Assembly: GCF_026965535.1 (NCBI RefSeq)
Contig: NZ_CP114039.1
Location: forward strand, 1,612,001 to 1,676,000
Source: Corallococcus sp. NCRR
Lineage (GTDB): Bacteria; Myxococcota; Myxococcia; Myxococcales; Myxococcaceae
Direction of reading: 5' to 3'
Length of the DNA stretch: 64,000 bases
Shown here: positions 53,964 to 62,169 of the stretch, one piece after another
How the letters are laid out: every line of letters starts with the position of its first letter
How positions within the stretch are numbered: the first letter of the stretch is position 1
Program-made: the position numbers and the translations under genes
Notes under the pieces: generated by a model
What the model was told of the DNA's origin: nothing
What the model saw: only the letters and a program-made list of their open reading frames with translations
Databases searched by the model: none

Positions 53964-54347
53964 ATGGACGGCGGACTGGCGATATTCGGATTCGGGTTGT
54001 TCCTGCTGTCGATTGCCAACCTGTACGCACGCACGTCGTACTGGCTGGCGTGGCCGCTGCTGGCGCTCTCCATGCTGGCCATGGGGATGGCGTTCAGCGA
54101 GTCGAAGCGCCTGCGGGACGTGTCGCTGGGGGTGGCGGCGGTGCTGGGGGTGTTGTTCATCGCCGCGCTGGCCACGGGCACGGTGTGGTGGCTGACGCTG
54201 GCGGTGTTCCTGTTCGCGGTGGCGTTCGGGCTGCTCTGGGCGGAGTTCCGCTTCGAGTACTTCGGGCACGTGACGCGGCAGGAGTTGCCCCACCACACGC
54301 ACCGCAGGTCGGTGCACTGGCCCTGGCACCGGCGGCGGGTGCACTAG
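53964..54347 (+). CDS. Small membrane protein with four helices and a His-rich tail
   Basis: A 127-residue protein with hydrophobic segments near residues 4-20, 25-44, 52-70 and 74-92, and a short C-terminal tail rich in His, Arg and Trp (PHHTHRRSVHWPWHRRR). AGGAGG lies about 7 bases before the ATG at 53964. It has no recognised family. The stop TAG is shared, on the opposite strand, with the recF stop in a CTAG overlap. The tail might bind metal or nucleic acid; that is speculation. Confidence 0.7.
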   Translation: MDGGLAIFGFGLFLLSIANLYARTSYWLAWPLLALSMLAMGMAFSESKRLRDVSLGVAAVLGVLFIAALATGTVWWLTLAVFLFAVAFGLLWAEFRFEYFGHVTRQELPHHTHRRSVHWPWHRRRVH

Positions 54348-55474
54348 GGTTGTGACGGGGACTCGGTGGCCACCTGTCCCGCGTGGACGGTGAGCCAGAG
54401 GGTGTCACTGGCGGCGGCGGCCCTCACGAGCCCCGCGTCGGTGGTGGTGAGGAAGACCTGCGCGCCGCTCCGGGCCAGGTAGCCCATGAGATAGGCATTG
54501 CGCTCGGGGTCCAGCTCACTGGAGACGTCATCCAGGAGCAGCAGGGGGAGGAAGCCCATGGCCGCCTCCAGGTTTTCAATCTCCGCGATCTTCCAACCGA
54601 GCACCAGGGCGCGCTGCTGCCCCTGGCTCGCGTAGGCGCGCGCGCTGCGGCCTCCGAGCGTCACGGACACGTCGTCCACGTGCGGGCCCACGGAGGTGAA
54701 GCCGCGGTCCAGGTCGCGGCGCAGGCGCGCGGAGAGGGCCTCGCGCAGCGCGGTGGCGAGGGCGCCCTCGTCCGCGTGGGCGAAGTCGGCGCCGAGGTGC
54801 GCGGGGTGGTAGCCGTAGACGGCGGGGTCGGCGGTGCGGCCGATGGACGCGAAGGTGGCCTGGGCGAGGGGCGCGAGCTCGGCCATCAGGGCGCGGCGGC
54901 GGGCGTAGAGGCGTGCGCCCGCGCGGGCGAGCGTCTCGTCATAGGCGTCGAGGTACGCGGCGTCGACGGTGGCGCCTTCCCGGAGCAGGCGGTTGCGGTT
55001 CTTGAGGGCGCGGGCGTACTCGCGGCTCTCCTTGAGGAAGGCGGGGAAGCGGTTGAAGACGGCGCGGTCCAGGAAGGCACGGCGCGCGTCGGGGCCGCCC
55101 TTGATGACCTCCAGGTCATCGGGCGTGAAGGCGACGACGGAGACGCCGCCGAAGTAGTCCTCGAGGCTGGCGGCCTTCTTGCCGTCCACGAGGGCCTGGC
55201 GGGTGCCACCGCCGACCTCGACGGAGATTTCGCGCTCGGCGCCCTTGAGGAGGAAGCGGCCGGTGACGCGAGCGGCCTGGGAGCCCCAGCGGACGAGCTC
55301 GGAGAGGCGTCCGGCGCGCAGGGGCTTGAGGGTGGCGAGGAAGTAGAGCGCCTCCAGGAGGTTGGTCTTCCCCTGCCCGTTCTGGCCCACGGCGATGGTC
55401 GAGTGGGGGCTGGGTGCGAGCTGCACCGCCGGGAGGTTGCGGAAGTCCTGGACCTGGAGCGAGAGGAGGCGCAC
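54344..55474 (-). CDS. recF: RecF, single-strand gap repair protein
   Basis: A 376-residue SMC-like ATPase that helps load RecA on gapped DNA. It begins MRLLSLQVQDFRNL, Walker A is VGQNGQGKTNLLEAL, the signature is YASQGQQRALVLGWKIAE, and Walker B is LLLLDDVSSELDPERN. Spacing and length match RecF. The upstream genes on the strand are now toxin-immunity and membrane operons, not dnaN, which lies 5.6 kb further upstream. The 3' end overlaps a convergent small membrane protein gene by 4 bases. Confidence 0.95.
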   Translation of the reverse strand: MRLLSLQVQDFRNLPAVQLAPSPHSTIAVGQNGQGKTNLLEALYFLATLKPLRAGRLSELVRWGSQAARVTGRFLLKGAEREISVEVGGGTRQALVDGKKAASLEDYFGGVSVVAFTPDDLEVIKGGPDARRAFLDRAVFNRFPAFLKESREYARALKNRNRLLREGATVDAAYLDAYDETLARAGARLYARRRALMAELAPLAQATFASIGRTADPAVYGYHPAHLGADFAHADEGALATALREALSARLRRDLDRGFTSVGPHVDDVSVTLGGRSARAYASQGQQRALVLGWKIAEIENLEAAMGFLPLLLLDDVSSELDPERNAYLMGYLARSGAQVFLTTTDAGLVRAAAASDTLWLTVHAGQVATESPSQP

Positions 55475-55572
55475 AGCGTCACCGTGAAGGGGCCGACCTT
55501 CGTACTACAGATGCGGCGGCCGGCGGGGCGCGGGATTCAGCGGGTGACGCTCGGTTGGTGGGCGCGGGGGCG

Positions 55573-56478
55573 TCACGGACAGAGCCGTCGCCGCCAGCGG
55601 TCCAGGTAGCTGCCGATCCCGGGGTCGTCCGACTTGTACATGAAGGGTTTCAGGAAGCAGGCCAGGGCGCGGTACTGGGGCGGAACGGGTTCCTGCTCGA
55701 TGTCGATGGCCTGGGGCCATTCGCTCAGGGTGACCAGCAGGCGCTCCTGTTCCATGGGGAGGAGGGAGACCTCCGGGAACGGCAGTGCCTGCCGCACCGC
55801 TTCGGTGCCGCCCATCCGGTCCAGCAGCGGCGGGCCCAGGAAGGTGAGCCAGTGGGCTCCAAGGGCGTGGAGCCCGATGACGGAACCGATCCTGGCGGTC
55901 GAGGGCAGGTCCAAGCCCAGATAGCGCGCGAAGTATTCATCCAGGACCTGCCACTTTCCAGCGGCCCAGGAGCCATCTGGCGGGACAAGGGCGAAGCTCG
56001 CGTAGCCGAAATGAAAGGGCAGTTCCCGAGCCAACTCCAACACCAGGGCACGCATCTGATGGGACCCCTGTTCCAGGAGGAATTCGGTCGGGAACGAGAA
56101 AGATATCGCGGTGCTGGACCCAATGCAGAGCGGGCGCACGATCCGGTTGCTGTGATACTCGAACTGGTACCCGCCAGTTCCTCCAGGTAGGTCGAACAAC
56201 TCGACGTGCCAGGCCAACCGGGAGGGCTGATCCACCATCCGCTTGCGAATGACTTCCCATCCGTCTTCATCCAGCTCCAGGACATCCCCATCGTCCGCGC
56301 CGTACCAGTTCAGCGACTGGGGCGGGAGGGCTCGAACGTAGGTCTGCAAGGCCCGCCAGCATGCCTGCGCCACGATGCTGTGGTCATGGGGGATGAAGAA
56401 CAAGACCGCGACACCGTCGCGGGCCGCTACTGCGCCGTCCCTGTGATGGCGACGAAGGGTGGGGAGGTTCGCGCTCAT
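55573..56478 (-). CDS. DUF3396-family immunity protein
   Basis: A 301-residue protein of the DUF3396 (type VI immunity, Imm-type) family. LFFIPHDHSIVAQACWRALQTY, LNWYGADDGDVLELDEDGWEVIRKRMV and FEYHSNRIVRPLC match the family's core. The ATG at 56478 overlaps, as ATGA, the restored stop of the upstream lipoprotein toxin gene, so it is translated right behind it. Family members neutralise cognate toxins by binding. No signal peptide is seen, so it acts inside the cell, as needed against an incoming nuclease. Confidence 0.8.
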   Translation of the reverse strand: MSANLPTLRRHHRDGAVAARDGVAVLFFIPHDHSIVAQACWRALQTYVRALPPQSLNWYGADDGDVLELDEDGWEVIRKRMVDQPSRLAWHVELFDLPGGTGGYQFEYHSNRIVRPLCIGSSTAISFSFPTEFLLEQGSHQMRALVLELARELPFHFGYASFALVPPDGSWAAGKWQVLDEYFARYLGLDLPSTARIGSVIGLHALGAHWLTFLGPPLLDRMGGTEAVRQALPFPEVSLLPMEQERLLVTLSEWPQAIDIEQEPVPPQYRALACFLKPFMYKSDDPGIGSYLDRWRRRLCP

Positions 56479-57271
56479 GGCCAGCGCACCACTCCACGGC
56501 GAGGAGAAACGAGCAGGGCCCTCCCACCAAGCGCATCCTCGTAGACCTCTCCTTGCGTTTGTCCCTTGTAGGGACTGCCGTCCCATAGGGTGACCACCGA
56601 GGTGGGTTGTCCTCAGGGCAGGGGAACTTGAAGTCCAACGTGAGCGCGGACGCGAGCAGATTGCGGTCCGCATGAAGGACTAGATCCGGCTTGATCGTGC
56701 CCCGGAGTTCATCTGTGCAGCCCTCGGCGAGCATCCGCGCTTCTTTCTCCCGGCTGATCGTCTCCACGAATCGGGCATTCGGATAGTAGCGATAGCGCTG
56801 CTCGATGCTGTAGGGTGCGGCCCAGAGTTCCTTGAGCACCTCCTCCGCGCACTGGAGGACCAGGACGTGCTTCTGCTTTCCGAGCTGCATGGCCCGCGTG
56901 ATGGGGTTGCCGCAGCGGTCGCGCCCCACCACCTCGCGGCACTCCTGCCGTGTCGGCGAGCGGTTTTCGAAGAAACGCGCATTGCCCTGGCGCTCGGCCT
57001 GGACGGCGCATTCCACGAGTCGCGCCTCCAACTCATCCGCGGAGTGGTCCTGTTGCATCAAGCCGAGGATGACCGGGGCGGCCTGGACCAGGGCGGAGGC
57101 CGTGGTGGAAGAGGCGCCCTGCTCCGCCACCACGGCCGCATGGCGAAGCCTCGCGGCGGTCTCCGTGTCGACGAAGCGCAGGTCTCCGTGCACGGAGCGC
57201 CGTGCGCTTCCGCCGGCACAGGCTGTGAGCAACGCGCTGACCGCGCACAGCGATACGAGTCTCCAACCCAT
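56475..57271 (-). pseudogene. Lipoprotein toxin with REase-like fold, frameshifted near 56580
   Basis: The first frame gives MGWRLVSLCAVSALLTACAGG (lipobox Cys at 18), a 150-residue middle region and a nuclease-like C-terminus with KPDLVLH (Asp near 196) and LDFKFPC (Asp213-x-Lys215), the D...D/E-x-K pattern of restriction-endonuclease-fold toxins. At codon 231 one base is missing; with it restored the protein continues GSPYKGQTQGEVYEDALGG and stops at 56475, overlapping the immunity ATG as ATGA. Intact length would be about 265. Lipoprotein toxins with downstream immunity genes are the SitA/SitI type delivered by outer-membrane exchange. Confidence 0.7.
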
Positions 57272-57281
57272 GCCACGGAAT

Positions 57282-57851
57282 CTACCGTGGGGACAACGCG
57301 GATTCCTGGACAACACGCCGGCTGCGAAACCCGGCCACGAACAACGCCGTGACGTAGGAGAGCCCCGACCACGGATGCGTGAGGCCATCCATGGGAATGG
57401 CCATCCATGGCAGCACCACACCGGAGATGACGGCCTTCCCCCAGCGATCTCCCCGAGAAAGCGGGGGCGGCGGAGGGTCGAGGGGTGCATCCTTCCCCGC
57501 GAAGATTCGCTTGAAGGCCTTCATGTCTCCGCGCACGTACAAATCAATCCCTGGCCGCGGCGTCTGCAGTTCCGTGTGGAGCGCCGGAGACAGCGCGGCG
57601 CCCACCGCCAGGTACGTCAGGCCCACCGCGAGCGTCCGGTAGAACCAGCCGCCGCGCCGGTCCGCCCCTTTCGCCACGGCCGTGCCCCCCCCCCATCCCA
57701 CCGCGATGGCGAGCACGCTGACGTTGTAGCCCGACAGGCCCGCGCAGAAGAGCACCAGCCCTCCCCCGAGCGCCGTGAAATAGCCATACACGCCCGCGCG
57801 CAGCATCCGGCTCGACCGTGTGCTGACAACCTCCGCCGTTGCGTTCGTCAC
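57282..57851 (-). CDS. Membrane protein, paralogue of the gene at 58911-59645
   Basis: A 189-residue protein with hydrophobic segments near residues 22-50, 68-92 and 140-165. The stretch SGYNVSVLAIAVGWGGGTAVAKGADRRGGWFYRTLAVGLTYLAVGAALSP is a clear homologue of TGYNIGLIAILVGWMVGT in the upstream paralogue. It lacks that gene's N-terminal zinc-ribbon. The GTG start at 57851 overlaps the stop of the M50 protease gene as GTGA. It is the last gene of a three-gene operon with the protease in the middle. The function is unknown. Confidence 0.7.
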   Translation of the reverse strand: MTNATAEVVSTRSSRMLRAGVYGYFTALGGGLVLFCAGLSGYNVSVLAIAVGWGGGTAVAKGADRRGGWFYRTLAVGLTYLAVGAALSPALHTELQTPRPGIDLYVRGDMKAFKRIFAGKDAPLDPPPPPLSRGDRWGKAVISGVVLPWMAIPMDGLTHPWSGLSYVTALFVAGFRSRRVVQESALSPR

Positions 57852-58918
57852 AGCGCCGCCGCCGCCCCCGTCCAGTGTTGCGCGGCCCAGCCCAGCGCGC
57901 CCAGGCCCACCACCAGCGCGCAGAACTCCACCAGCGTGCGGCGGTCGCCCGTCTCCGACGCGGGCGTGAGCAGGGTCCGGTACGCCGCCACACCCGCGAT
58001 GAGCAGGAGCAGGTTCTCTCCCGTGGCGAACCACGTCGCGCCCACCACGGCCACCACCAGCCATCGCTGCTGGCGCGCCAGGGCCCGGAACCCGCGCGAG
58101 CCATCCAGCTGCCACACCGGCACCAGGTTGAACAGGTTCATCCATGCCGCGAAGTGCGCGATGGCGCCCAGCGCCTTCCACCCCGTCAGCACCGCCGCCA
58201 CCAGCGTCACCACCACCGCCGCGCTGCCCCAGATGGGCCCCGCGAGCCCCACTCGCGCATCCTCGCGCTCATCCACCGGCAACTGCTTCAGGCGCACGAA
58301 CGCGCCCAGGCCCGGGATGAACATGGGCGCGTCCGCCTTCATGCCCAGCCGGCGCAGCGCTGCCACGTGCCCCATCTCGTGCACGTAGATGCAGGCCACC
58401 AGCCCCAGCGCGAAGCTCCAGCCCCATATCGTCCAGTACACGCTCGCCGCGAACAGCATGGAGAACAGCGTGCTCGCCTTCGTGAGCCCGAGCAGCAGCA
58501 GCTTTCCCTTGCCCAGCAGCAGCGCCAGCACGAACTTGAACTTCCACAGCATCAGGCCCACCGCGCCCATGCTGGCCAACACCTTCGGCATCCCCGAACG
58601 CTTGCGCTCCGCCTCCGCCAGCGGCGCCGCCAGGCCCTGCGCGTCCGCCTGCTGGCTCAGCGCCGTCACCCGCGCCGTCACCTGCGCGTGCTGCGCCGTG
58701 TCCGGCGGCAACAACTCCAATGCCTCACGCCACAGCGCCAGCGCCTCCAGCGGCGCGCCCCGCGCTGACGCAGCCTGCGCGTCCGCCGCCAGCTGCGTCA
58801 GCCGCTTCCCGTGCACCAGCTTCCGGCACGACGGACACGTGAGCAGCCGGGGCGCCAGCTCCGAACCACACCCCTCACACCGCTGCGTGAGGAGCGATAC
58901 CGCGAGCGCCTCAGCCAA
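57848..58918 (-). CDS. M50-family site-2-type metalloprotease with N-terminal zinc ribbon
   Basis: A 356-residue protein. An N-terminal zinc ribbon (CEGCGSELAP...CPSCRKLVHG) is followed by a TPR-like helical region (about 40-100) and then about five membrane helices. The active site is VHEMGHVAALRRLGM (HExxH), with the distal ligand in NLVPVWQLDGSRG. Site-2 proteases cut membrane-embedded substrates such as anti-sigma factors. Both flanking genes overlap it by a few bases and are homologous to each other, which suggests that their products are substrates or subunits of the protease complex. Confidence 0.85.
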   Translation of the reverse strand: MAEALAVSLLTQRCEGCGSELAPRLLTCPSCRKLVHGKRLTQLAADAQAASARGAPLEALALWREALELLPPDTAQHAQVTARVTALSQQADAQGLAAPLAEAERKRSGMPKVLASMGAVGLMLWKFKFVLALLLGKGKLLLLGLTKASTLFSMLFAASVYWTIWGWSFALGLVACIYVHEMGHVAALRRLGMKADAPMFIPGLGAFVRLKQLPVDEREDARVGLAGPIWGSAAVVVTLVAAVLTGWKALGAIAHFAAWMNLFNLVPVWQLDGSRGFRALARQQRWLVVAVVGATWFATGENLLLLIAGVAAYRTLLTPASETGDRRTLVEFCALVVGLGALGWAAQHWTGAAAAL

Positions 58919-59645
58919 CGGACCGCTCCTGCTCCGCGGGCGCGGCCTCGCCCTCGGCCGGCGCCTCCGCCAGCTTGAACGGCCCCGCGATGTTCAGCTC
59001 CGTCCGCTTCGTGCGGCGCCACGCCTCGAACAGCGCGAAGCCGTAGATGAGCCCGGAGATGGGGCTGTTGATTCCCACCAGCACCGGCGCCGCCACGGAA
59101 ATCACTCCCGCGAGGACCACGTTGGCCGCGGGAGAGGACTCCACCGCTTCCCCAGCAGGCGCGTCCGCCGCCACCTCGGCCGGAGGCTGTGTCGTGAGCT
59201 CCTTGTAGACATCCGGCGCGAGCGAGGCCGCCACGGCGAAGTACGTCAGCCCCACCGCGAGCGCCTGGTAGAACCAGCCGCCGCGCGACTCCGAGCCCTT
59301 GAACACCGCTGTCCCCACCATCCACCCCACCAGGATGGCGATGAGGCCGATGTTGTAGCCCGTCAGGCTCACCACCCAATACACGAGCGCCCCCGCGATG
59401 GCCGCGCCAAAGCCAAACACCGCCGCCTTCAGGGCGCGCTTTGACTTCGAGCCGCCCGTCATCGCGGCCTCCACCTGCTCGCGGCACTCGGGACACAGCA
59501 GGCGCGTGTTCAAGTCGTAATACACGCTCTTGATGGCGCGCTGGCAGAAGGAGCACTTCGGCGCCGAGGGTGCTTCGGTGAACTCGGCGCGGTCGAACTG
59601 CAGCGATGCCTCGTCGGAGGCCGGCGGAGGAACTGGCTGGGTCAT
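58911..59645 (-). CDS. Zinc-ribbon membrane protein, first gene of the M50 operon
   Basis: A 244-residue protein. A zinc ribbon near residues 30-55 (CSFCQRAIKSVYYDLNTRLLCPECR) is followed by three or four helices. TGYNIGLIAILVGWMVGT and SRGGWFYQALAVGLTYFAVAASLAP are shared with the paralogue downstream of the protease. The end reads INSPISGLIYGFALFEAWRRTKR plus an acidic tail. The ATG at 59645 lies in a region without a strong ribosome binding site. The gene overlaps the M50 gene by 8 bases. The zinc ribbon resembles that of the protease, so the two may share a partner. Confidence 0.7.
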   Translation of the reverse strand: MTQPVPPPASDEASLQFDRAEFTEAPSAPKCSFCQRAIKSVYYDLNTRLLCPECREQVEAAMTGGSKSKRALKAAVFGFGAAIAGALVYWVVSLTGYNIGLIAILVGWMVGTAVFKGSESRGGWFYQALAVGLTYFAVAASLAPDVYKELTTQPPAEVAADAPAGEAVESSPAANVVLAGVISVAAPVLVGINSPISGLIYGFALFEAWRRTKRTELNIAGPFKLAEAPAEGEAAPAEQERSVG

Positions 59646-59726: not shown

Positions 59727-60995
59727 TCAGCCGCCCTGCTTCAGCGCCGCGTGCCGAGCCGCCTGCACCAGCACCACCAGGTCCCCGTTGCGCGCCACGT
59801 CTCCCCCAGCGGGCTTCGCGTGCTCCGGTGAGAACAGCCGCGCGGGCGTGCGCGCCTGGCCCCGCAGCATCACGAAGAGGCGCAGCGCGTCCCGCAGGGC
59901 CTCCGCCTCCTGCCCCTCCTCCGCGCGCGCCCGCTGCGCGGCCTGCTCCAGCCGCGACCACGCCACCTCTTCATTCCACGCGCCCCGGGGCCGCTCGCGA
60001 GACAGGGCCGCCAGCGCCGCCGCCGTCTCCACCAGCCCCGCGCGCCCTTCCGTGAACACACTCCGCGCGGACAGCCGCAGCGCCGGGTCCTCCGACAGCG
60101 CGGCCCTCCAGGACAACAGCGCGGGCAGCTCCGACTCACGCGGCACCACCGGCGCCAGCTCCGCCTCCAGCACCGCGCGCACCCGCACCCGCGCCACGTC
60201 GTGCCAGAAGGCCGCGTGCAACAGCAACTCCGGACCGCTGCGCGCCACCCGCGTCGGCGCCCGGCGCATGCGCCGCTGGAGGAAGTCCTTCACCCGCCCC
60301 CGGCTGTCGTAACGCTCCAGCCGCTCCCACAGCGCCACCAGCGCGGCGGCGCCCAGCGGCAGCGCCCGCGCCAGCTCCCGCGCCTCATCGTCGGAGAAGG
60401 CCGGCGCCCCTTCCGTCACCGGGCGCTTGAACACGCGCTCGAAGACCTCGCCCGCGGCGCACGCGGCGCGCAGCTCCGGCAGATTGCGCGGCAACAGCTC
60501 CACCGCCTGGGCCCAGACGCGGCCGCCCAGGAATGGCGCCGCGTCCAGCACCTCCGTCTCCAGGCGCAGCAGCCGCGCGCCCAACGTCGCGGGCCCGTCG
60601 TCCTCCTCCGCGTCGTCGGAAGCCGGGGAGACACTGGCGGACAGCCGCCGCTCGGCCGCGCGCTCCACCGCCTCGCGCAGGCGCTCCACCTCGTGCATCA
60701 ACCGGACAGGGGCGGCGTTGTGGGGCCAGCCTTCCGCCTCCACGCGGCGCCGCATCGCGGCCAGCGTCGCGTCCACCTCCGGCTGGTCGGCGGCCACTTC
60801 ACGCAGCAGCTCGAAGTGGTTGCGGATCCGGTCCTTCCAGAAGAAGGACTCCAGCACGCCCTTGAGCGCGCGGTAGCGCAGGCGCGTGGCCTCCAGGAGG
60901 TCCGCTCGGTCCTCCAGCCGCGCTCTCAGGTCGTCTGGACGGGTGGCCACGCCTTCATCATAAGGGCGCCCCGCGCCGGGCGCAGGCCTCCCCAT
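59727..60995 (-). CDS. Helical protein of unknown function next to dnaN
   Basis: A protein of about 422 residues from ATG 60995, or 407 from GTG 60950; neither has a clear ribosome binding site. It is rich in Leu, Arg, Ala and Glu, with long amphipathic helices (DDLRARLEDRADLLEATRLRYRALKGVLESFFWKDRIRNHFELLREV), and lacks membrane segments, a signal peptide and known motifs. It lies 67 bases downstream of dnaN on the same strand and is probably co-transcribed. It could be a chromosome- or replication-linked protein, but the sequence does not show that. Confidence 0.7.
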   Translation of the reverse strand: MGRPAPGAGRPYDEGVATRPDDLRARLEDRADLLEATRLRYRALKGVLESFFWKDRIRNHFELLREVAADQPEVDATLAAMRRRVEAEGWPHNAAPVRLMHEVERLREAVERAAERRLSASVSPASDDAEEDDGPATLGARLLRLETEVLDAAPFLGGRVWAQAVELLPRNLPELRAACAAGEVFERVFKRPVTEGAPAFSDDEARELARALPLGAAALVALWERLERYDSRGRVKDFLQRRMRRAPTRVARSGPELLLHAAFWHDVARVRVRAVLEAELAPVVPRESELPALLSWRAALSEDPALRLSARSVFTEGRAGLVETAAALAALSRERPRGAWNEEVAWSRLEQAAQRARAEEGQEAEALRDALRLFVMLRGQARTPARLFSPEHAKPAGGDVARNGDLVVLVQAARHAALKQGG

Positions 60996-61062: not shown

Positions 61063-62169
61063 TCAGACGCGCATGGGCATGACCACGGCGGTGAAGCTGC
61101 GGTCGCCGGGGCCGTGCAGCACGCCCGGGCTGTGCTCGTCCCCCAGCTCGAAGCTGACCTCGTCCGTCTCCGTCACGCCCAGGACGTCCATGAGGTAACG
61201 GGCGTTGAAGCCGATGGTGATGTCGTTGCCCTTGTAGTCCACGTCCAGCGCGTCTCGCGCCTCACCCAGGTCCGGGTTGCTGGCGGTGATGAGCAGCTTG
61301 CCCTTCTCCAGGCCGATGCGGATGGCGTTGCTCTTGTCCGCGGACAACAACGCGATGCGCTTGAGGCCCTCCAGCAGGCGCACCTTCGGGACGAGGACGA
61401 CCTTCTCGCCCTCCTTGGGGATGACGCGCTGGTACTCGGGGAACTGCCCGTCGATGAGGCGCATCACCATGGTGAGGCCCGGCTTCTTGAACAGCGCCGA
61501 GTTCTCCGCGAACCCCAGGTGGCACTCCGCGTCCGGGGCCTCATCCAGCAGGCGCTTGAGCTCCATCAGGCCCTTGCGCGGGATGATGACGCCGCTCTTG
61601 AGCTTGAAGTCACCGGACATCTCGCGCTCGATGAGCGACAGCCGGTGGCCGTCCGTGGCCACCATGCGGACCTTGCCGCTCTGCTGCGGCTCGAAGAAGA
61701 CGCCGTTGAGGATGTAGCGCGTCTCGTCGCTGGAGATGGCGAACTGGGTCTTCTTGATCATCTCCAGCAGCACGTTGCCGGAGATCTGCACCAGCGGAGC
61801 GTTCTCCTCCTTGGGCAGCTTCGGGTACTCCTCGGCGGCCATGCCGACGATCTTGAAGTGCGCGGAGCCGGAGGAGATGTCGACGTAGTTGTTCGCCAGC
61901 TTCTTGAGCGTGACCTCCGCGTCCGGGAGGTTCTGGACGATGTCGAAGACGTACTTCGCGCTCAGCGTGACGGCGCCCGGCTTGGCCACGTCCGCCTGGT
62001 GCTCGGACACGATGCCGATGTCCAGGTCGAAGGCCGTGACCGTGATGCTGCCCTTGTTCGCCGTGAGCAGCACGTTGGCGAGGATGGGCATCGTCGTCTT
62101 GCGCTCCACGATGCCCTGGGCGCGATAGAGGGCCTTCTTCAGCTCGTCGGCGGCGATGCGGAATTCCAT
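61063..62169 (-). CDS. dnaN: DNA polymerase III sliding clamp (beta subunit)
   Basis: A 368-residue beta clamp, three repeated domains of about 120 residues. It begins MEFRIAADELKKAL, has the domain 1 pattern RKTTMPILANVLLTA, VATDGHRLSL in the middle domain, and ends FTAVVMPMRV, the conserved P-M-R terminus that lines the hydrophobic clamp-binding pocket. It holds DNA polymerase on DNA as a ring-shaped dimer. AAGGACG lies before the ATG at 62169. dnaA is not next to it within the window, and no cluster of DnaA boxes is seen, so the origin lies elsewhere. Confidence 0.97.
   Translation of the reverse strand: MEFRIAADELKKALYRAQGIVERKTTMPILANVLLTANKGSITVTAFDLDIGIVSEHQADVAKPGAVTLSAKYVFDIVQNLPDAEVTLKKLANNYVDISSGSAHFKIVGMAAEEYPKLPKEENAPLVQISGNVLLEMIKKTQFAISSDETRYILNGVFFEPQQSGKVRMVATDGHRLSLIEREMSGDFKLKSGVIIPRKGLMELKRLLDEAPDAECHLGFAENSALFKKPGLTMVMRLIDGQFPEYQRVIPKEGEKVVLVPKVRLLEGLKRIALLSADKSNAIRIGLEKGKLLITASNPDLGEARDALDVDYKGNDITIGFNARYLMDVLGVTETDEVSFELGDEHSPGVLHGPGDRSFTAVVMPMRV

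Follow-up and report, generated by a model that had tools for sequence, protein, structure and literature searches.

In Corallococcus sp. NCRR, an intramembrane protease of the M50 family is encoded next to, and in a reading frame overlapping with, the gene of a membrane protein with an N-terminal zinc finger, here called A; A accompanies the protease in many unrelated bacterial groups, probably as a working partner. We see about an even chance that the two proteins form a two-protein membrane module, in which A would serve the protease as a subunit or adaptor instead of being its substrate. The original prediction for this DNA had assumed that the protease has its partner encoded in the neighbourhood, and this link turned out to be dedicated, old and widespread, both within the Myxococcota and in a scan of 80 protease loci. 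The window analysed here is a stretch of 64,000 nucleotides (NCBI RefSeq assembly GCF_026965535.1, contig NZ_CP114039.1, positions 1,612,001 to 1,676,000), and all coordinates refer to it.

Genes of the locus and fold of the protease

According to the open reading frames of the window, three genes follow each other on the minus strand in the order A, protease and C. The genes and the features discussed below are:

58911-59645, minus strand: gene A, 244 amino acids; zinc finger, membrane-helix core and C-terminal strand; putative partner of the protease
59484-59555, minus strand: four-cysteine finger of A (C31, C34, C51, C54) with a profile match to CONSTANS B-boxes and a weak structural match to ZZ domains
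58974-58997, minus strand: conserved C-terminal strand of A, xLxxxGPF (G in 37 of 43 and P in 42 of 43 rows)
58911-58918, minus strand: overlap of gene A and the protease gene, 8 bases; relatives usually have a short overlap or gap here
57848-58918, minus strand: gene of the M50 (site-2) protease, 356 amino acids, TTG start
58826-58879, minus strand: N-terminal zinc ribbon of the protease, CxxC-x10-CxxC (C14, C17, C28, C31), from sequence and alignment
58640-58810, minus strand: N-terminal helical bundle of the protease (residues 37-93), TPR/MIT-like in predicted shape
58367-58381, minus strand: HEMGH zinc-binding/catalytic motif of the protease (H180, E181, G183 and H184 invariant in 43 rows)
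58100-58138, minus strand: NLFNLVPVWQLDG motif of the protease (N..NLVP..QLDG; N261, N264, P267, D272 and G273 invariant in 43 rows)
57282-57851, minus strand: gene C, 189 amino acids, GTG start; duplicate of the membrane core of A without zinc finger or GPF strand
about 57252-57840, no strand assigned: segment of about 590 bases corresponding roughly to gene C, missing from the relatives L098 and L100, in which the flanks are at most about 15 bases apart

Several elements of the original prediction were borne out at this level. All three genes overlap as described, the protease gene and gene C by 4 bases, and the two flanking genes are paralogues with 40% identity over 170 positions (E 2e-32 in that single comparison). 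The enzyme matches the Pfam family Peptidase_M50 with an E-value of 2.5e-13 and 50.3 bits, against a cut-off of 27.2. The zinc ribbons that had been predicted for A and the protease are visible as two CxxC pairs near each N-terminus; no zinc family of Pfam passes its cut-off for either protein.

Upstream of the three genes lies a gene which we take to be dnaN (61063-62169). It is separated from A by a gene of 422 amino acids (59727-60995), which all 16 genomes of the genus carry and whose product matches nothing in Pfam or NCBIfam at E ≤ 1. The gene content of the region between the protease and recF (54344-57271) differs within the genus: G000, G077, G079, G087 and G088 have a lipoprotein-like gene and a TsiV-like immunity gene (55573-56673; Pfam E 1e-51), other content is found in G075, G082 and G085, and neither A nor the protease is present in the stretch examined in G078, G081 and G084. 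A link of the pair to toxin immunity was considered and rejected; the TsiV-like gene follows in these five genomes of the genus, but in other genomes the pair sits at a different place and lacks this gene.

The HExxH motif and a downstream NxxPxxxxDG-type motif are both conserved in the protease across 43 aligned rows. Its structure, predicted as a single chain (pLDDT 88.1), resembles SpoIVFB (8vjl; Z 9.8, 134 residues at 3.2 Å), RseP (Z 9.2 with the protein from K. koreensis and 9.1 with that from E. coli), with which it shares the HExxH motif, and the M. jannaschii protease MjS2P (3b4r; Z 8.8), with which it shares core fold and motifs; at the level of sequence profiles, MjS2P is matched with an E-value of 2.1e-12 and SpoIVFB with one of 2.6e-6. 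A Foldseek search with the same model returned nothing at E ≤ 0.001, the best match being SpoIVFB (E 5.8e-3, probability 1.00). The top row of the structure list is the TPR protein BepA (Z 10.4), which aligns to the N-terminal bundle, a common shape. As modelled, the protease has the membrane fold of site-2 proteases (S2P), and it would act as such an enzyme, its membrane domain being preceded by a zinc ribbon and a small bundle of helices. These N-terminal parts distinguish it from SpoIVFB, and MjS2P is smaller, with a chain of 224 residues. The sequence match to RseP is weak (NCBIfam TIGR00054 scores 10.8 bits, E 0.16, where the cut-off is 147.55), and, unlike RseP, the protease has no PDZ family in Pfam at E ≤ 1. 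A function as a peptide-maturation protease, for which a weak NCBIfam match to LiaK (E 0.021) was the support, was dropped.

Occurrence and co-divergence of A and the protease

When 195 Myxococcota genomes were searched with each of the three proteins, A was matched in 29 genomes (E ≤ 0.001) and adjoined by the protease in 25 of these, including G008, in which both matches are partial and lie 334 bases apart. A is present without an M50 gene alongside in G088, G106, G148 and G029, and as a second copy in G082. Starting from the protease, 25 of the 26 strongest matches (E ≤ 1.1e-26) have A alongside, the exception being G006; this cut-off, like that of E ≤ 1e-30 used for A below, was set after the lists had been seen. 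Within the genus, A and the protease occur in 12 of 16 genomes and C in two of 16. The original prediction had described a three-gene block and named separation of the genes in most genomes as evidence against it. By this measure, A and the protease, which are mostly found together, hold up as a unit; the trio was dropped as one conserved system because C is present in only two of the 195 Myxococcota genomes.

A scan of named genomes with the protease alignment extended the pairing beyond the Myxococcota. Among the best 80 of at least 223 confirmed relatives of the protease, 42 loci have A, recognized by a profile match, directly upstream on the same strand, and these loci come from at least 11 named phyla: Acidobacteriota (10), Gemmatimonadota (9), Myxococcota (8), Planctomycetota (4), Rokuibacteriota (3) and, with one locus each, Pseudomonadota (a metagenome bin), Sumerlaeota, Lentisphaerota, Spirochaetota, Walliibacteriota and Eiseniibacteriota; two loci have no phylum assigned. 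The spacing between the two genes is -20 to +30 bases in 40 of the 42 loci and -43 and +50 in the remaining two. The presence of A differs with the type of protease: if proteases matched by the profile from position 10 or before are counted as ribbon-type, A lies upstream in 36 of 40 testable ribbon-type loci, leaving four without it, versus six of 36 loci without ribbon, among the same 80 (one of 41 and three of 39 loci, respectively, were set aside since they lie at contig ends; Fisher p 2.3e-11, run with 37 rather than 36 loci in the group without ribbon). A search of 14 whole genomes taken from the 38 loci without A gave no match to the A profile at E ≤ 1e-5, and the same search recovered A in 11 of 11 genomes with the pair. 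Unlike in the SpoIVFB system, there is no third gene family that keeps appearing next to the pair in different phyla: none is found in more than five of 52 loci, and the recurrences mostly fall in one bacterial family. One recurrent cluster of 19 loci is a reading frame opposite the protease gene and was read as an artefact.

The reverse survey used the A profile to search 742 genomes. Matches at E ≤ 1e-6 were obtained in 27 of 249 Gemmatimonadota, 19 of 247 Acidobacteriota and 39 of 246 Planctomycetota genomes. Strong matches (E ≤ 1e-30) were found in 35 of the 742 genomes (20, 11 and 4, respectively) and lie beside an M50 gene in 30 of these (19, 7 and 4), a proportion that is biased towards pairing because the profile was built from A genes beside M50. 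The other five are L246, L269, L275 and L276, with no M50 gene beside A, and L273, which is cut by a contig end. When all examined matches at E ≤ 1e-6 are considered, an M50 gene is found alongside in 37 of 76 genomes (Gemmatimonadota 20/27, Acidobacteriota 9/19 and Planctomycetota 8/30, the check in the last phylum covering 30 of 43 matches and 30 of 39 genomes). Many of the non-paired matches are distant relatives without finger, and of the 42 weaker matches examined, 29 have no finger or no visible finger region. Among Acidobacteriota and Planctomycetota loci, 15 of 25 testable A-like genes with a finger are accompanied by the protease, the other ten having no M50 gene in the flank examined, versus two of 24 finger-less ones (L278 and L297). 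Finger and protease thus tend to go together, which makes C, a finger-less core beside a protease, unusual.

The two partners also diverge in parallel. For 40 A-protease pairs, the tree distances are correlated with r = 0.95, and for 34 ribbon-type pairs with r = 0.57; in both cases, none of 2000 permutations reached the observed r, and part of the correlation is due to shared descent. The underlying alignments (A6 and A7) had 43 rows each, of which 40 were common, and the two trees share 13 of 37 splits. Within the genus, nine comparisons with the window genome, identical for both genes, give dN/dS ratios of 0.36-0.64 for A versus 0.20-0.41 for the protease; further A pairs reach 1.15, and the A pairs considered are a subset. 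The faster evolution of A would fit a subunit or adaptor as well as a substrate. Between G000 and G077, dS of A (0.33) exceeds that of the adjacent protease (0.17), which hints at an exchange of divergent A alleles. Selection on A seemed relaxed in G088, where the protease has been lost (dN/dS 1.22 and 1.31, with wide intervals), but this was discarded as evidence because G087, which bears the protease, gives 1.35.

The zinc-finger domain of A and the origin of C

The finger of A has the pattern CxxC-x16-CxxC near the N-terminus, and its four cysteines are kept in 42 to 43 of 43 aligned rows. In the predicted structure (pLDDT 88.0), the finger is followed by roughly five long helices, and residues 219-224 form a terminal strand. 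A sequence profile (A1) matches the finger to the B-boxes of CONSTANS proteins (7wsj, E 1.1e-5; 7vsq, E 4e-5). The Pfam families zf-B_box and ZZ are absent from the matches of A at E ≤ 1 and from those of five distant relatives at E ≤ 0.5, and one distant relative has a LIM match with an E-value of 0.0031, which is below the Pfam cut-off. A Foldseek comparison of the whole model with the PDB yielded no match at E ≤ 0.001. In the structure list, the ZZ domain of p62/SQSTM1 is aligned over 46 of 51 residues with a low Z of 4.4 and an rmsd of 2.0, covering residues 24-226 of the model, and the ZZ domains of p62 and BIG as a group give equally low Z values of 4.3-4.4 (rmsd 1.9-2.9, 45-49 residues, range 24 to 225/226); RING and LIM proteins follow with Z 4.2, and unrelated helical proteins rank above the ZZ rows with Z values of up to 6.2. 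As the finger region (approximately residues 24-63) is too short to accommodate 46 aligned residues ending at position 226, the domain appears to be completed in the model by the C-terminal strand. A would then consist of a membrane core bearing a treble-clef domain of B-box/ZZ-like type, to which both the N-terminal finger and the terminal strand contribute and which probably lies on the cytosolic face of the membrane.

The likeness to p62 has its limits. The ZZ domain of p62 binds N-degrons via an aspartate following its first cysteine; in A, this position is occupied by A (18), S (7), G (7), V (4), T (3) or Q (2) as the six commonest residues among 43 rows, and aspartate is not one of them. 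A also differs from the ZZ domain in that a second set of zinc ligands is not conserved, the four cysteines kept in the finger across the 43 rows amounting to one set.

Other arrangements of A-related proteins were seen in the surveys. Stand-alone A-related membrane cores without finger occur in Gemmatimonadota and Planctomycetota (L257-L260, L262, L263, L298, L300 and L302-L314), A-like cores follow longer N-terminal regions in L121:9125-10288 and L237:202-2178, with no M50 match in the stretch, and Planctomycetota proteins with a different cysteine-rich N-terminus (L293-L296, L299 and L301) have no M50 match alongside.

Gene C was the only second match when its own genome was searched with A, with no further copy, and the likeness between the two is thus not due to chance. 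C lacks the finger and has no CxxC pairs. Among the Myxococcota genomes searched, only G000 and G077 carry an orthologue (90% identity), and the remaining matches of C in the Myxococcota are A genes with 33-53% identity, except for a weak match in G050 (E 7.5e-4). In a tree of 57 A-type rows, C is placed inside the A genes of the genus (support 99/81) on a branch of length 1.87. Based on this placement, on the presence of the orthologue in two genomes and on the cleanly missing segment in L098 and L100, C is, as far as its sequence tells, a genus-level duplicate of A that keeps the membrane core and has neither the finger nor the C-terminal strand. C may still be functional: its two copies, with a dN/dS of 0.28 between them, do not look obviously dead. 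The long branch of C could also be that of a gene losing its function.

Possible roles of the pair and its relation to known systems

In B. subtilis, SpoIVFB is governed by membrane partners, SpoIVFA and BofA, which restrain the protease, and PDZ domains filter the substrates of RseP. By analogy with these controlling elements, A would regulate access to the protease or bring substrates to it, presumably by direct contact. To our knowledge, SpoIVFA and BofA are unrelated to A, and we know of no A-type partner of MjS2P and of only few bacterial site-2 proteases with a known partner. C, as a truncated copy, may modulate the protease; it might compete with A or form an alternative complex.

The pair could instead serve the quality control of membrane proteins, with the treble clef of A recognizing misfolded or orphan membrane proteins and the protease degrading them, so that a single dedicated substrate would not exist. 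The patchy distribution over many phyla and the lack of a recurrent third gene are in line with this, as is the link of prokaryotic B-boxes to the folding, stability and proteolysis of membrane proteins, which is made in PMC4506424 with reference to a 2011 paper by Burroughs, Iyer and Aravind. However, A is found in a minority of genomes (29/195, 27/249, 19/247 and 39/246, the last three including weak matches), which would be odd for a housekeeping function, and we regard this role as rather unlikely.

The original prediction had proposed both paralogues as candidate substrates from their adjacency. In that case, a cut by the protease within the membrane helices of A would set its zinc-finger portion free to act as a signal. 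An enzyme and its substrate could likewise be neighbours with correlated trees, the genes overlap, and within the genus A changes faster than the protease, as a substrate might. However, the finger and the C-terminal strand, located at the two termini, seem to make up a single domain, so that a cut between them would free no complete domain; Pfam gives A no match at E ≤ 1 to a DNA-binding or sigma-factor family, most known S2P substrates span the membrane once, and C has no finger to release. The pairing, the conserved cysteines together with the C-terminal strand and the correlated divergence fit a subunit or adaptor better, and we assign a low probability to A, or C, being a substrate. That the protease has substrates of its own, with A merely travelling along in a small cassette that is transferred as a whole, is consistent with the patchy distribution and with the absence of A from most related proteases without ribbon (30 of 36 testable loci among the best 80 of at least 223), but it is very improbable given that the pairing holds across deep divergence with frames overlapping or nearly touching and that 14 genomes without A beside the protease have A nowhere else (E ≤ 1e-5).

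A connection between prokaryotic B-boxes and the proteolysis of membrane proteins has been proposed before, according to PMC4506424; the B-box membrane proteins described there combine a zinc treble clef with a link to proteolysis, as is suggested here for A. No description of the pair, a site-2 protease with a probable dedicated treble-clef membrane partner, was found in the literature searched, which includes few subscription papers.

The conservation of the pair across many phyla, often in overlapping frames, offers a defined two-component system in which the substrate choice of site-2 proteases could be tested, with C, a natural partner copy without the zinc-finger part, serving as a built-in control. 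A more specific version, which sequence and model allow us to put forward but which we consider unlikely as it stands, is that A is a membrane-embedded substrate receptor whose two-ended treble clef reads clients and hands them to the protease. If this were true, at least 11 bacterial phyla would possess a ubiquitin-free counterpart of the eukaryotic recognition by B-box, ZZ and RING domains, and in two genomes of the genus, C would be a copy without the receptor domain that acts as a natural competitor.
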